Source: Paracoccaceae bacterium (GTDB taxonomy: Bacteria > Pseudomonadota > Alphaproteobacteria > Rhodobacterales > Rhodobacteraceae). From it: DNA of 64,000 nt. The notes beneath the pieces were generated by a model. It was not told the origin of the DNA. It ran no database searches and worked only from the letters and a program-made list of their open reading frames with translations. Location: assembly GCA_022843025.1 (NCBI GenBank), contig JALHOL010000007.1:124001-188000 (forward strand). Direction: 5' to 3'. Positions 18,301 to 52,990 of the stretch are shown in pieces. Each line of letters starts with the position of its first letter. Within the stretch, counting starts at the first letter, position 1. The position numbers and the translations under genes were made by a program.

Positions 18301-18345
18301 CGTGCAGCAGGCGGTGCAGCCACCTGTGCAGCAGAACGTGCATAC
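18301..18345 (+). repeat. 45-nt element with four GTGCA boxes at 12-nt spacing (3' of eno)
   Basis: GTGCA occurs at 18302, 18314, 18326 and 18338, an exact 12-nt period, starting 7 nt after the eno stop and ending before its terminator. A second copy, about 36 of 45 positions identical and with the same spacing, lies at 51862-51906 on the minus strand just downstream of the ureohydrolase stop, in the same orientation relative to its gene. It is outside any credible reading frame. The function is unknown; a 3'-UTR RNA element or an iterated protein-binding site are both possible. Confidence 0.7.
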
Positions 18346-48066: not shown

Positions 48067-49242
48067 TCAGTCCTGCACGCCGGTCGCCGCGTCTTCGCCC
48101 CGCTCCGCCTCGATGGCCCGCCAGCGCGCGACGTTTTCGTTATGCTCTTCCAGCGTGCGGCCAAAGGCATGCCCCCCGGTGCCATCGGCCACGAAATACA
48201 GGTAATCCGTGGTATCCGGGTTCAGCGCCGCCTCGATGGACAACCGCCCCGGATTGGCAATCGGCGTCGGCGGCAGCCCGTCGATGACATAGGTGTTCCA
48301 CGGGGTCTCGCGGCGCAATTCGCTCTGCCGCAACCCGCGCCCCAACACGCCTTCACCCCGCGTCACGCCGTAGATGACCGTGGGATCCGTCTGCAACCGC
48401 ATCCCCTGCCGCATCCGGTTCACAAAGACGCTCGCCACCTGCTTGCGCTCCTCGGCGATCCCGGTCTCCTTTTCCACGATCGACGCCATGATCAACGCCT
48501 CTTCCGGCGTCTCATAAGGCAGGCCCTCGACCCGCGCCGCCCACAGCTCGGCCAGCGTGGCCGTCTGCCGCGCGGTCATCTCGGCCAGCAACGCAGCCCG
48601 GTCCGCGCCCCGCGCCACCTCATAGCTGTCGGGGGCCAACGTCCCCTCGGGTGGCACTTCGGCAATCTCGCCCGTCATGAACTCCGCCCGCTTCAGCGCA
48701 TCCACAACCTGCCAGCTGGTCACCCCTTCGGCCAGCGTGATGCGCCAGCGGATATCATCCGCCTCGGCCACATCCAGATACTCCGCCGGTGCCGCCGTCA
48801 CGGCAGGATCAAAAGCCACCACTTCGACATAGCGGTTCGTCGCCGGGTCCAGCTCACGCAGCACCACCTCGGCACTCGCGACCGAGATCCGGAAATTCAC
48901 CTCGCGGCCACAGGTGGATTGTCCCCCTGCCGTCAGACTGTCCAGAATCTGCGCCATGGATTGCCCCGGCGTCACCAGATAGGACCCGAATTTCAGCCCA
49001 TCCGCCTTGCCCGAATAATCCGCCCCGATACGAAAGATGCGCGCATCACTGACCGCACCCTGCTCCTCCAAAGCGCGGCTTACGGCGGAAAGCGATGCCC
49101 CCCGTTCCACCCGGAAACAGATCGACTGCTCCAATGGCCCCGGCCCGGCATATTCCTCCCGGCCCCAGGCCAGCAGCCCCGCCGCCGCCACAAGCGCCAC
49201 AACGAACAGCGTCAGTGCATTGGACGCAATCGCCCGCCACAT
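48067..49242 (-). CDS. mltG: endolytic murein transglycosylase MltG
   Basis: The protein is 391 aa. An N-terminal membrane anchor (FVVALVAAAGLLAWG) precedes a LysM-like region and the YceG domain with catalytic Glu in IMASIVEKETGIAEERKQ, then VFVNRMRQGMRLQTDPTVIYG and PIANPGRLSIEAALNPD. It cleaves nascent glycan strands in the periplasm. Its start overlaps the fabF stop (TGATG), so it is translationally coupled to fabF. Confidence 0.96.
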   Translation of the reverse strand: MWRAIASNALTLFVVALVAAAGLLAWGREEYAGPGPLEQSICFRVERGASLSAVSRALEEQGAVSDARIFRIGADYSGKADGLKFGSYLVTPGQSMAQILDSLTAGGQSTCGREVNFRISVASAEVVLRELDPATNRYVEVVAFDPAVTAAPAEYLDVAEADDIRWRITLAEGVTSWQVVDALKRAEFMTGEIAEVPPEGTLAPDSYEVARGADRAALLAEMTARQTATLAELWAARVEGLPYETPEEALIMASIVEKETGIAEERKQVASVFVNRMRQGMRLQTDPTVIYGVTRGEGVLGRGLRQSELRRETPWNTYVIDGLPPTPIANPGRLSIEAALNPDTTDYLYFVADGTGGHAFGRTLEEHNENVARWRAIEAERGEDAATGVQD

Positions 49243-50516
49243 CAGCCCGCCACCCCATCGGTCACGCGGCCCAGCACAAGGCTGGCATTGGTGCCACCAA
49301 AGCCGAAGGAATTGGACAGCGCCACGTCGATCTTGCGCTTGACCGCCTTGTTGGGGGCAAGGTCGAGCTTCGGCGCCACGGCGGGCGTATCAAGGTTGAT
49401 CGTCGGCGGTGCCACCTGATCCCGGATCGCCAGCACGCAGAAGATCGCCTCTACCGCCCCCGCCGCGCCCAGAAGATGCCCGATCGAGGATTTGGTCGAT
49501 GACATGGTGGCCTTGGCCGCCGCATCGCCCATCAGCCGCTCTACCGCACCCAGCTCGATCGTGTCGGCCATGGTGCTGGTGCCATGGGCATTGATGTAAT
49601 CCACATCCGCAGGCGTGAGCCCTGCCCGCTTTAAGGCCGCCGCCATGCTGCGATAGCCGCCATCGCCATCTTCGGACGGTGCGGTGATGTGATAAGCATC
49701 GCCCGACAGGCCATAGCCCAGCACCTCGGCATAGATCTTGGCCCCGCGCGCCTTGGCATGCTCATATTCTTCCAGCACCACCACACCCGCGCCCTCGCCC
49801 ATCACGAACCCGTCGCGATCGGCGTCATAGGGGCGGCTGGCCTTGGTCGGGTCATCGGCGCGTTTGGTCGACAGCGCCTTGCAGGCGTTGAACCCGGCAA
49901 TCCCGATTTCCGAAATCGGGCTTTCCGCGCCGCCGGCGATCATCACATCGGCATCGCCCCACTGGATCAGCCGCGCCGCATCGCCGATGGCATGCGCGCC
50001 GGTCGAACAGGCCGTCACCACCGCATGGTTCGGCCCCTTAAAGCCGAAGCGGATGGAAACCTGCCCCGAAATCAGGTTGATCAGCGCGCCGGGAATAAAG
50101 AAGGGCGATACCCGCTTGGGGCCCTTTTCCTTGATCAGCACCGCCGTTTCGGCAATCGACGTCAGCCCGCCGATGCCGGATCCGATCATCACGCCCGTCC
50201 GCAGCCGGCTTTCCTCATCCTCGGGCTCCCACCCGGCATCGCGCACGGCTTGCACCGCTGCCGCCATGCCATAGAGGATGAAATCATCCACCTTGCGGCG
50301 GTCTTTGGGTTCCATCCAGTCATCCGGGTTGAAACTCCCGTCGCTGCCATCGCCCATCGGGATTTCGCAGGCATATTGCGTCACCACATTGGATGCATCA
50401 AAGCGCGTGATCGGCCCGGCACCGGATTGCCCTGCCAGCAACCGGCTCCAGGTTTCCTCCACTCCGCAAGCCAGCGGCGTGACCATCCCCAGACCCGTGA
50501 CAACGACCCGACGCAT
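49242..50516 (-). CDS. fabF: 3-oxoacyl-ACP synthase II
   Basis: The product is 424 aa from the ATG at 50516 (GGGAGAGC upstream); the longer open frame upstream is read-through of non-coding sequence. Condensing enzyme of fatty-acid elongation. The Cys-His-His active site is visible: VVTACSTGAHAIGDA, NAHGTSTMADTIE, SSTKSSIGHLLGAAGAV. MRRVVVTGLGMVTPL is the family start. It is separated from acpP by the ureohydrolase and a 1.4-kb repeat region, unlike the usual fabD-fabG-acpP-fabF run. Confidence 0.97.
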   Translation of the reverse strand: MRRVVVTGLGMVTPLACGVEETWSRLLAGQSGAGPITRFDASNVVTQYACEIPMGDGSDGSFNPDDWMEPKDRRKVDDFILYGMAAAVQAVRDAGWEPEDEESRLRTGVMIGSGIGGLTSIAETAVLIKEKGPKRVSPFFIPGALINLISGQVSIRFGFKGPNHAVVTACSTGAHAIGDAARLIQWGDADVMIAGGAESPISEIGIAGFNACKALSTKRADDPTKASRPYDADRDGFVMGEGAGVVVLEEYEHAKARGAKIYAEVLGYGLSGDAYHITAPSEDGDGGYRSMAAALKRAGLTPADVDYINAHGTSTMADTIELGAVERLMGDAAAKATMSSTKSSIGHLLGAAGAVEAIFCVLAIRDQVAPPTINLDTPAVAPKLDLAPNKAVKRKIDVALSNSFGFGGTNASLVLGRVTDGVAG

Positions 50517-50872
50517 TGCGCTCTCCCGCCCAGTTGAAACCATTCGCGCGGTGATACACGCGCCCATTGCCCCACGCAACCGGCGCCCCGTTCGACAGGG
50601 CAATTGCGGCGGATTGCGCCCCGCCTCGGCAGGGTGCGCTGTCCAAAGAAGAAGGGGGCTGTCTGCCCCCTCTTGCCCCGCGCAACGCGCGGGGCAATTC
50701 ACCCCCGAGGATATTTGCGACAGAGAAGAATGGGCAGAGAAAGGGCTAAGGTCGCCGCCTTCCCCCTTTGGCTTATTGGTTTGGCAGGCCGCGATAAAGC
50801 AGAGCCCCCGTCGCAACTGAAAAGCATCAACACGGAAGGCGCACATCTGATCCTTCACCGCCTTCCCCGCGC
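50517..50872. other. intergenic region upstream of fabF
   Basis: About 355 bp without a credible gene. It holds the fabF promoter/leader and two GC-rich hairpins (a GGGGGC/GCCCCC stem near 50657-50674 and CCCCGCGC/GCGCGGGG near 50681-50699), followed by the dispersed repeat at 50702-50739. The hairpins read as a terminator-like or attenuator-like structure, but no function is established. Confidence 0.4.
50702..50739 (+). repeat. dispersed repeat with AGGATATTTG and ACAGAGAAGAATGGGC, copy 1
   Basis: The segment reads CCCCCG, AGGATATTTG, two variable bases, then ACAGAGAAGAATGGGC. An inverted copy at 55479-55511 matches nearly throughout. Both are intergenic and next to GC-rich hairpins. I have seen similar blocks in Rhodobacterales intergenic regions, but cannot name the element. 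Confidence 0.65.
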
Positions 50873-51861
50873 GTTAACCCTAACGCGTAAGCAACCAATG
50901 ACATGCTTCCAGAGGGCTGATCTGGGCGCCTTCAAGGGGTGGGCGGAGCCCCGCAAATGTTTGCCTCGCCCCGTTCAAAGGACGCGCATCCCCCATCGCC
51001 TGCCAACACCACTTCGTTAACCCTAACGCCCGATCAACGAGTTGCCCGCCTACACAGCCCGTCCAGATGTGCCGCTGAAGGCATCATAGCAGCCAACCCA
51101 AACCGCGCGCCGTCCTTCGCGCCTTCGTCCCAGGTTAACCTTAATGCCCGATAAACGAGTTGTCCGCCTACACAACCCGACCAGATGTGCCGCCAAGGGT
51201 ACCGACGTCCTCAACCCAAGCCATACGCCCGTCGCCGCGCCTCCACGCGGCGTTAACCCTCATACCTGAATGAGGAATGTCTCGTCTGCACAACCCGCCC
51301 AGACGGACAGTGGAGGTTACAGTCGCCCCCAATCCAAGCCGCGAGCGTTCCGCAGGGCCTTCACCGCGCGTTAACCCTCATACCTGATTGACGAATATCT
51401 CGCCTGCACAACCCGCCCAGTAGGACAGCCAAGGGTACAGTCGCCCCCAACCCAAGCCGCGAGCATTCCCCAGGGCCTTCACCCCGCGTTAGCCTTAACG
51501 CCTGATTGACGATTGCCCCACCCGCGCAACCCACCCAGTCGCGCAGCAGAGGCTACTGTCGCCTTCAATCCAAACCGCGAGCATTCCGCCGGGCCTTCAC
51601 CGCGCGTTAACCTTAACGCCTGATTGGCGAATGCCCCACCTGCACAACCCACCCAGTCGCGCAGCAGAGGGTACTGTCGCCCCGAGCCCAAGCCATGCGC
51701 CCTCCAACGCGCGTTACCCCAAACGCGCGCTCATCGGATGGCCCAGCTGCACAAGCCGCCCCAACGTATCGACGACGGCAAGGACACACCAGCCCAGGCC
51801 GCGCCCCTTCCGCCACCCCTTCACCCAGCGTTAACCTTAACGCCTGATGACCCCACCGCGC
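50873..51861. repeat. tandem array of about 118-bp non-coding repeats
   Basis: GTTA-start boxes occur at 51016, 51134, 51252, 51370, 51488 and 51606 with exactly 118-bp steps, then at 51713 (a 107-bp unit) and 51830 (117). A divergent first unit begins at 50873. Each unit opens with GTTAACCYTAAC or a variant, has a TGCAC box 35 bp in, then a block like CAACCCAAGCCGCGAG, and ends CCTTCACCGCGC. Neighbouring units are roughly 60-85 percent alike. Because 118 is not a multiple of three, the repeats are not protein repeats. The array fills the gap between the ureohydrolase and fabF. Function unknown. Confidence 0.85.
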
Positions 51862-51906
51862 GTATGCACAGCCGTCTGCACCGGGCGCTGCACCGCGTGC
51901 TGCACG
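51862..51906 (-). repeat. 45-nt element with four GTGCA boxes at 12-nt spacing (3' of ureohydrolase)
   Basis: On the minus strand GTGCA recurs at offsets 2, 14, 26 and 38, as in the element after eno (18301-18345), with about 36 of 45 positions shared. It begins about 25 nt after the ureohydrolase stop. It is also the last part of the 118-bp array: its final GTGCA aligns with the TGCAC box of the array units, so the two repeat systems may be related. Confidence 0.7.
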
Positions 51907-51931
51907 ACCCAAATCCGCCCAGAGCGAAAAT

Positions 51932-52891
51932 TTATCCTGCGTCCGCAACCCCTTGCGCCTGTCGGGCGATCACCCCCACCGCGCCCGCCAGAACCTGCGC
52001 TGCCACCATCGCGCCCAGCCCATCGATGTCGCGCTCGGGCATGAATTCCACCATGTCGAAGGCCACGATCCGCCCCTTCTCGGCCACCGCACCGATCAGT
52101 TCCATCACCTGCCAATAGCTCAATCCCCCCGCCGTCCGGCCAATCGCCGCCGGCATGATCGCGGGGTCCAGCGCATCGACATCCAGACAGATCACCACCT
52201 CCGCCCCTTCGGGGATCAGGTCCACCGCGCGCCAGACGCCCGCCCGCGCCACCTCACCCGCCGGGACAAACTCCACCCCCCAGGCCTGCGCATCCGCCAC
52301 ATCCGCCATCCGCGCCGAACCGATACCGCGTTGGCCCACTTGAACAATCCGCTCCACATGCCCCATCTCGCTCGCCCGCCGCATGGTGGAGGACAGGCCC
52401 CAGCGTTCGCCCTGCACCTCATCACGCCAGTCGATATGCGCGTCGATCTGCAAGATTGTCACCCGCCGCCCCGCATCTGCCAAGGCCTGCAACATCGGGA
52501 TGGGCAGGGAATCATCCCCCCCGATCAGCACTGGCACCGCCCCAGCCGCCAGAACCTGCCCCACCGCCGTCCGCAGCCGTGCCCGGTTGCCGGGGGCGTC
52601 CCCCTCTGACACCGCGATATCACCGGCATCCACCGCCACCACGCCCGGGGGCAGGATCGGCCCGCCCAGATCGAAATTCATGTGGCCAAGGTTCGCCGCA
52701 TAGGCCGCCCCCGCCGCCCGGATCGCCGCAGGCCCCCCGGCGCAATAGAACCCGACAGAGGGATAGGGCGTACATCCCGCCGCCCCCAGCAGCACGATCT
52801 GCGCGTCCACCATTGCCAGATCGCGGCAGGCGGGAAGGCCCATGAATGTTTCTACCTGCTCTGCCCCGAACATCGCCCCCAAGGTTGTCAT
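51932..52891 (-). CDS. ureohydrolase (agmatinase/guanidinobutyrase-like)
   Basis: The product is 319 aa from the ATG at 52891, with GGGAG upstream; 25 further upstream codons are unsupported. It is an arginase-superfamily manganese enzyme that releases urea from a guanidino compound. Metal-binding segments are LIGGDDSLPIP, QIDAHIDWRD and VICLDVDALDP. In most relatives the first motif is GGDHS; here the His is Asp. The substrate (agmatine, guanidinobutyrate or other) cannot be fixed. It lies between acpP and fabF, breaking a normally contiguous fatty-acid cluster. Confidence 0.85.
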   Translation of the reverse strand: MTTLGAMFGAEQVETFMGLPACRDLAMVDAQIVLLGAAGCTPYPSVGFYCAGGPAAIRAAGAAYAANLGHMNFDLGGPILPPGVVAVDAGDIAVSEGDAPGNRARLRTAVGQVLAAGAVPVLIGGDDSLPIPMLQALADAGRRVTILQIDAHIDWRDEVQGERWGLSSTMRRASEMGHVERIVQVGQRGIGSARMADVADAQAWGVEFVPAGEVARAGVWRAVDLIPEGAEVVICLDVDALDPAIMPAAIGRTAGGLSYWQVMELIGAVAEKGRIVAFDMVEFMPERDIDGLGAMVAAQVLAGAVGVIARQAQGVADAG

Positions 52892-52990
52892 CCCGCTCTC
52901 CCATTGCCATGCCACGCGTGCAGTCTCTCCCGCACCCGGTTGATTCTGCACGTCCTTTCGCGACACGCCATCGCGGCCCCGGAAATGGAA

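Follow-up and report, generated by a model that had tools for sequence, protein, structure and literature searches.

The spacer between a fabF-type gene and an arginase-family gene in a Paracoccaceae bacterium holds a tandem array of units of about 118 bp, which raises the question of what such an array is and where it came from. We call the window the whole stretch of 64,000 nucleotides that was analyzed (contig JALHOL010000007.1, positions 124,001 to 188,000, forward strand). G000 is the genome of this window, and G011 is a second genome of the same species. A sequence-only reading of the locus had proposed an sRNA array, an iteron-like binding array, or a satellite. The features discussed below are, in window coordinates:

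49242 to 50516, minus strand: fabF-type ketoacyl synthase gene (PF00109, PF02801), on the far side of the array.
50861 to 51003, no strand: divergent first unit of 143 bp, with CGCGTTAACCCTAACGCG.
51004 to 51711, no strand: six-unit core in exact 118-bp register (unit starts 51004, 51122, 51240, 51358, 51476, and 51594).
51701 to 51817, no strand: divergent 117-bp unit with GCGCGTTACCCCAAACGCGC, the outer pair of which is gone in G011.
51829 to 51905, minus strand: copy of a dispersed element forming the last unit, with four GTGCA boxes and then CGTTAAGGTTAACG (51842-51829).
51932 to 52966, minus strand: arginase-family ureohydrolase gene (PF00491, E 4.4e-48).
18302 to 18342, plus strand: second dispersed element in the window (G000:C7:142302-142342), directly after a stop codon and sought in 19 genomes of the genus.

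The array (50861-51905) lies where it had been placed, between fabF and the arginase-family gene, and Tandem Repeats Finder scored it 270 and 412, against at most 73 for ten other rows of the window. GTTA boxes at 51016, 51134, 51252, 51370, 51488, and 51606 are spaced by exactly 118 bp. The flanking units also have the lengths first described: the boxes after 51606 follow at +107 bp (51713) and +117 bp (51830), and that of the divergent first unit (50873) stands 143 bp ahead of 51016. The TGCAC box said to lie at offset 35 in each unit is exact in three of the core's six units, replaced by TACAC in two, and absent in either form from one; beyond the core it is present at 51748 and 51865. The palindrome, likewise attributed to each unit, is broken at 51252 and 51370 (GTTAACCCTCATACC), and single units of G011 have it altered to GTATACC, GTGAACCCTCAT, or GTTACCCTTAAT. 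G000 does have the palindrome of its 51713 unit changed on both sides, but the G011 counterpart of this unit lacks the outermost pair, so the paired change is a single case and no evidence of general covariation. Units W1 to W6 share 60-86% mutual identity, and the palindrome columns are only slightly better conserved than the rest of the array (0.875 vs. 0.817). Outside the array, two units only had matches in G000, which were short (16-26 bases, E 0.4 or worse); the palindrome end of the array also had short matches elsewhere in G000. Comparison of the units with phages gave no match.

Two observations concern the neighborhood. Terminase and portal genes (PF03237, PF04860; 45011-47677) stand beside YceG-like (mltG) and fabF genes, in what we take to be the order of a Rhodobacterales gene transfer agent head cluster. 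The title of record CP059262.1 (L041) names Exiguobacterium profundum, but the record encodes a ureohydrolase of Rhodobacterales type with 70% identity to the present one; its label looks wrong.

The first proposal, an sRNA array, is unlikely: the units match no Rfam family and show neither a promoter nor a clear RNA fold, and several of them have a broken palindrome. The Rfam scan of 50000-52600 gave no match at E up to 5; the promoter scan found no sigma-70-like promoter, and terminator-like sites occurred at the shuffled rate (2 vs. 2.0). Three of the six units, each folded as plus and as minus strand, gave z-scores from -1.96 to +1.76.

Our results showed that the third proposal, a satellite, describes the array well. 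The same flanks enclose six 118-bp units in G000 and ten in G011. Three of the ten are 98-99% identical to each other, and the edge units correspond between the genomes (W1 with S1, 89%; W2 with S3, 97%; W3 with S4, 89%). Because this conspecific genome has ten units, three of them nearly alike, we regard the array as a satellite of variable copy number. Its middle has been rebuilt between the two genomes, which is ordinary satellite behavior, with inner growth and homogenization and divergence at the edges. It is usable as a strain-typing marker and is a local case of the tandem multiplication of the elements described below.

The origin of the array is suggested by its last unit. On the minus strand, this terminal element carries four GTGCA boxes at an exact spacing of 12 bp (51901, 51889, 51877, and 51865 as TGCAC on the plus strand) followed by CGTTAAGGTTAACG, and its first box lies 26 bp beyond the stop codon of the arginase-family gene. 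The 21 bases around the palindrome (ATCAGGCGTTAAGGTTAACGC, minus strand) are identical in the 51594 unit and the terminal element. In 13 of the 26 dispersed elements of type A, GTTAA lies 40 bp past the last GTGCAG, that is, 28 bp past GTGCAT; two others have 45 bp, one has 51, and ten are without GTTAA(C/G). The distance from the GTGCA-like box to the palindrome is likewise 28 bp in the array units that keep both. Because this distance is kept and the 21 bases are common to the terminal element, the array would be an amplified element end, probably grown from the end of the local dispersed element plus some 60 bp of neighboring sequence. A profile of 16 dispersed elements matched the array units through the palindrome only (best E 0.004, both strands), so the descent of the units from the local element, which we infer from the spacing and the common bases, is not proven by score. 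The second proposal, an iteron-like binding array, holds to the extent that the last unit belongs to an iteron family and the distance from GTGCA to the palindrome is kept; binding is putative. The terminal element had no match among 72,556 plasmid records, and the iteron sites are spread over the G000 contigs and the G011 chromosome, not clustered at a replication origin like plasmid-origin iterons.

The search of open-licence PubMed Central found no published description of this dispersed family. Read along the locally G-rich strand, an element has between two and four GTGC(A/C)G boxes at 12-bp steps; the final box is often GTGCATAC, and many elements continue to a GTTAAC box at least about 28 bp beyond it. 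The iteron pattern had 98 matches in G000 and 98 in G011 (control 0). We analyzed 71 elements of G000, defined by the first motif with at most one mismatch; about a dozen further iteron-pattern sites of this genome fall outside the set, and one member, L208, is probably a chance match within a gene. The iterons are common to all sub-types and the continuation differs, being GTGCATACGC in 26 of the 71, GTATGCACGCAGCG in 29, GTGCATACAAATTC in 12, and other in 4. The last box is seen both as GTGCATAC and as GTATGCAC. In the loci of G007, G009, and G018 it is often GTGGCCAC instead of GTGCATAC, and the spacers are CAAACT or CATTCT. The palindrome CGTTAACCYTAACG occurs 19 times (14 + 5) in G000 and its reversed control not at all; 12 of the 19 copies, the terminal element included, are followed by at least two TGCAC boxes in the same arrangement, and the copy at L103 has the boxes on the opposite side.

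The strict pattern was found in only three of 394 genomes of the family, from 393 genera: G000 (27 matches), G018 (4), which is of the same genus, and G165 (1); other dialects in other genera would escape this search. With a laxer pattern, the 19 genomes of the genus gave 160 matches in G007, 121 in G000, and 117 in G011, 17-50 in each of G001, G003, G004, G005, G008, G009, G016, and G018, and 0-4 in the remaining eight (reversed controls 0-8). Four of these eight, the outgroup genomes, have ATGCAC boxes 11 bp apart instead (pattern ATGCAC-N5-ATGCAS), with 61 matches in G012, 54 in G015, 43 in G017, and 37 in G002 and none in the controls; 22 loci were taken from these 195 matches for further analysis. 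G006, G010, G013, and G014 (4 of 19) had at most one match to either pattern.

Members of the family do not always have the GTTAAC box, which is less constant than the iterons: GTTAA or TTAAC lies within 95 bases downstream in only 6 of the 22 outgroup elements, and at +20..+80 in 51 of the 71 G000 elements (upstream, 18 of 71). The GTTAA offsets form a "comb" (40, 45/46, 51/52/53, 57/58, 63, 68, 77), which we set aside because it largely reflects the three sub-types, iterons that advance by 12 bp, and a palindrome with a self-spacing of 6 bp. This box, read as GTTAACC, could also make the array a binding site for CtrA or another cell-cycle regulator, and an excerpt of one study has CtrA acting at flagellar promoters of R. 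sphaeroides (PMC6180460). GTTAA is enriched downstream of the elements (47 of 71 at +20..+80 vs. 15 of 71 at -100..-40), as is GANTC (23 of 71 at +40..+120 vs. 4 of 71 at -100..-20). However, TTAA-N7-TTAA, which had been reported absent and is indeed not found in 50801-52000, is also absent from the 71 elements, which have half-sites only; GTTAACC is lost in several array units, and few elements lie in divergent spacers (5 of 64). We therefore consider a regulator array distinctly improbable. Several of the downstream GANTC sites (+40..+120) take the form GTGAGTCG.

The 118-bp array is not the only case of tandem growth in the genus. G015 has five iteron groups of ATGCAC type at 80-bp spacing (L420:917-1396), four of them with GTTAAC. 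They sit behind the orthologue of the gene that precedes the L198 element, where G000 has a single element, and this array is independent of the 118-bp one. Two elements lie 127 bp apart in G009 and 116 bp apart at L119 of G000. The fabF spacers of five relatives, read by sequence, hold an element or unrelated sequence, and that of R. ruber has two 189-bp units that are 86% alike.

The elements favor the 3' ends of genes. By an in-house codon model that misplaces some genes, 64 elements lie between two called genes, which are convergent in 28 cases, tandem in 31, and divergent in 5; the corresponding numbers for other spacers of at least 80 bp (window and G011 samples) are 20, 81, and 35. The GTGCAG strand is the G-rich one by flanking GC skew in 69 of the 71 G000 elements and in 30 of 30 G011 loci (28 elements, two of them seen twice), and the ATGCAC elements of the outgroups are on the G-rich strand at 20 of 22 loci. 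Isolated words behave differently: the G-rich strand carries 175 of 289 GTGCAG words (61%), 39 of 117 ATGCAC words in G011, and, in the outgroup loci, 4 of 13 isolated ATGCAC words. These controls rule out an artefact of composition. Gene direction is ruled out as the cause by the context classes: 27 of the 28 elements between convergent genes are on the G-rich strand, as are all 14 elements that are antisense to both neighbors.

The same 14 elements count against an RNA element (a 3' UTR motif or an sRNA array), which would account for the upstream gene being on the same strand in 49 of the 71 cases. Folding offers this reading one minus-strand unit (z -1.96) and the terminal element (z -1.75), the only dispersed element folded; the other units range from -1.07 to +1.76. 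No common hairpin was seen in the list of 71 elements, nothing matched Rfam, and the last box varies between GTGCATAC and GTATGCAC. An RNA role is very improbable.

A strand-polar site might be a directional signal for chromosome segregation or replication, of the kind of the KOPS motif GGGNAGGG, which is named for alphaproteobacteria in an excerpt of PMC2443382 and used across replicons according to a part of PMC13342612. Such a signal would fit a polarity that holds whatever the gene direction, and the KOPS motifs in the flanks are on the same strand as the element 77 times and on the opposite strand 29 times. However, GGGNAGGG is itself polarized in G011, where it switches around 0.4-0.5 Mb and within 2.532-2.552 Mb. 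With the arms set at 0.55 and 2.65 Mb, element orientation agrees with KOPS at 52 of 72 G011 sites and disagrees at 20; an alternative fit of 59 of 72 came from an optimized split. Twelve of the 20 disagreeing sites are near 0-0.55 and 1.8-2.14 Mb, two stretches in which GC skew and most elements tend to oppose KOPS. The number of elements per 0.5 Mb of G011 (9, 9, 5, 4, 10, 9, 7, and 13, with 6 in the last 0.23 Mb) has no clear rise toward the terminus. We consider a KOPS-like signal improbable, and replication polarity as a plain description is weakened, as orientation follows GC skew and not always the KOPS arms. Since the elements follow GC skew and in places oppose KOPS, their orientation was probably set with an older strand asymmetry and is no longer strictly held; with only 52 of 72 sites fitting the arms, present selection for element direction is doubtful. 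We also observed that GC skew and KOPS polarity mostly conflict at 0-0.37 Mb and 1.9-2.13 Mb of G011, a pattern that might result from inversion of segments with later re-orientation of KOPS alone.

Reading of alignments showed that 26 of 36 elements from three other species are at a position that is also occupied in G000: 11 of 16 in R. ruber (G004), 6 of 8 in G003, and 9 of 12 in G008. Of the ten uncounted, L270, L281, and L287 are unmatched, L269 is in the same neighborhood at a different place, and L271, L273, L285, L292, L302, and L303 have a weak match or match by the element alone; unmatched elements may pair with G000 sites outside the 71. In 25 of the 26 pairs (L276/L142 was omitted), boxes differ by 7-10% and the 6-bp spacers by 23-42%, by 12-bp phase; the low box figure is partly ascertained, both members having been found through the box pattern, which leaves the spacer figure unaffected. 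The flanks are mostly 70-90% identical, and 12-bp indels are present. The second element of the window (18302-18342) illustrates this. Iteron-like boxes, more or less complete, stand behind the same stop codon in eight further members of the GTGCAG group (G001, G004, G005, G007, G008, G009, G016, and G018), in the versions GTGCAG, GTACCG/GTGCCG, or GTGCCGCAAACT...GTGGCCAC, and outgroups G002, G012, and G015 have ATGCAC boxes there instead. No boxes were found at this locus in G003, and no such pair in G006, G010, G013, and G017. Spacer sequences are species-specific although positions are shared.

The same pairs bear on decayed coding sequence or a coding repeat, a reading to which the 12-bp iteron, equal to four codons, and copies within frames (L221, L285, L302) lend something. 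Orthologous elements have no excess of mismatches at the third position (0.16, 0.24, and 0.21 by codon position), and with no codon pattern the V-Q-x-x frame was rejected. The array period, 118 bp, is no multiple of three, as had been noted, and no gene is called by the codon models in the stretch that separates the fabF frame from that of the ureohydrolase. The decayed gene named beforehand as a refutation is thus not borne out by these models or by the five spacers read in relatives. This reading is extremely improbable. By eye, iteron copies are apparently inside reading frames at L221, L286, and L299, at L285 and L302, and at L251; the first group has 12-bp (four-codon) length differences between species.

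More weight belongs to the possibility that the elements are non-autonomous, REP-like mobile repeats with no host function and the array neutral debris. Entry into single-stranded DNA at the replication fork would explain the single orientation, and strand polarity, the 3' intergenic location, species-specific sequence, and confinement of the strict form to one genus, one stray match aside, are all as expected, as is an orientation that tracks GC skew better than the present KOPS arms. However, positions are common to several species, and the elements change in place by 12-bp units. The search for the Y1/RAYT transposase (PF01797) revealed none over the cut-off in any of the 19 genus genomes and one sub-threshold match in G007; the search control matched in 5 of 14 named genomes. 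We regard mobility as rather unlikely, though to be taken seriously. Were they mobile, the elements would form a REP-like family that lacks a recognized transposase.

The reading that we prefer, with moderate confidence, is that the elements are putative DNA-level sites evolving in concert and that the array is a by-product satellite. On this view, each element is a candidate site for a rapidly changing factor that binds or recombines DNA. The sites would have been placed in a single orientation with respect to strand asymmetry, would be tolerated chiefly at gene 3' ends, and would be homogenized within each species by presumed copying or conversion; the binding of a protein is likewise putative. 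Unequal crossing-over or slippage would then amplify the GTTAAC end of one copy into a tandem satellite, which may add weak sites or do nothing, and may be neutral. Should the elements prove to be protein sites, the genomes of the genus would form a natural series, their dispersed cis sites having changed in place several times, and concerted cis-trans change in bacteria would be directly testable. A bolder version, which is speculative and which we think unlikely, sees in the elements the bacterial equivalent of rapidly evolving satellite or centromere-type DNA: one-way, chromosome-wide iteron sites with many positions shared across the genus, whose sequence and even period (12 vs. 11 bp) change together from one genome to the next, presumably pursued by a putative binding protein, with local arrays as by-products.

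Among known systems, REP elements (REP/BIME/REPIN with RAYT) seem by analogy the nearest in habit. They too are dispersed intergenic repeats, mostly 3' of genes, that number roughly a hundred, cluster locally, and fall into species-specific classes. The REP-type unit is a 20-40-bp palindrome as described in a part of PMC3733652, whereas the present elements are direct 11-12-bp iterons. They also differ in keeping many positions between species and one orientation relative to GC skew, in genomes with no RAYT gene over the cut-off.

DNA uptake sequences have far more copies per genome than the present elements, which, unlike them, are iteron-based. Both are a genome-wide short signal with clade-specific dialects, as an excerpt on Neisseriaceae describes for the uptake sequences (PMC3630211). 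KOPS and architecture-imparting sequences (AIMS) are likewise strand-polar and on the G-rich strand. AIMS are octamers that become more abundant toward the terminus, in the excerpted text of PMC5993296, whereas the present sites are composite, about 75 bp long, and without such a clear rise, and KOPS coexists with them in G011. The array itself is like bacterial minisatellites (VNTRs) in its head-to-tail copies, its variable copy number, its homogenized middle, and its diverged edges. Unlike them, its unit keeps the box and the spacing of a dispersed element, and comparable arrays arose in other species.
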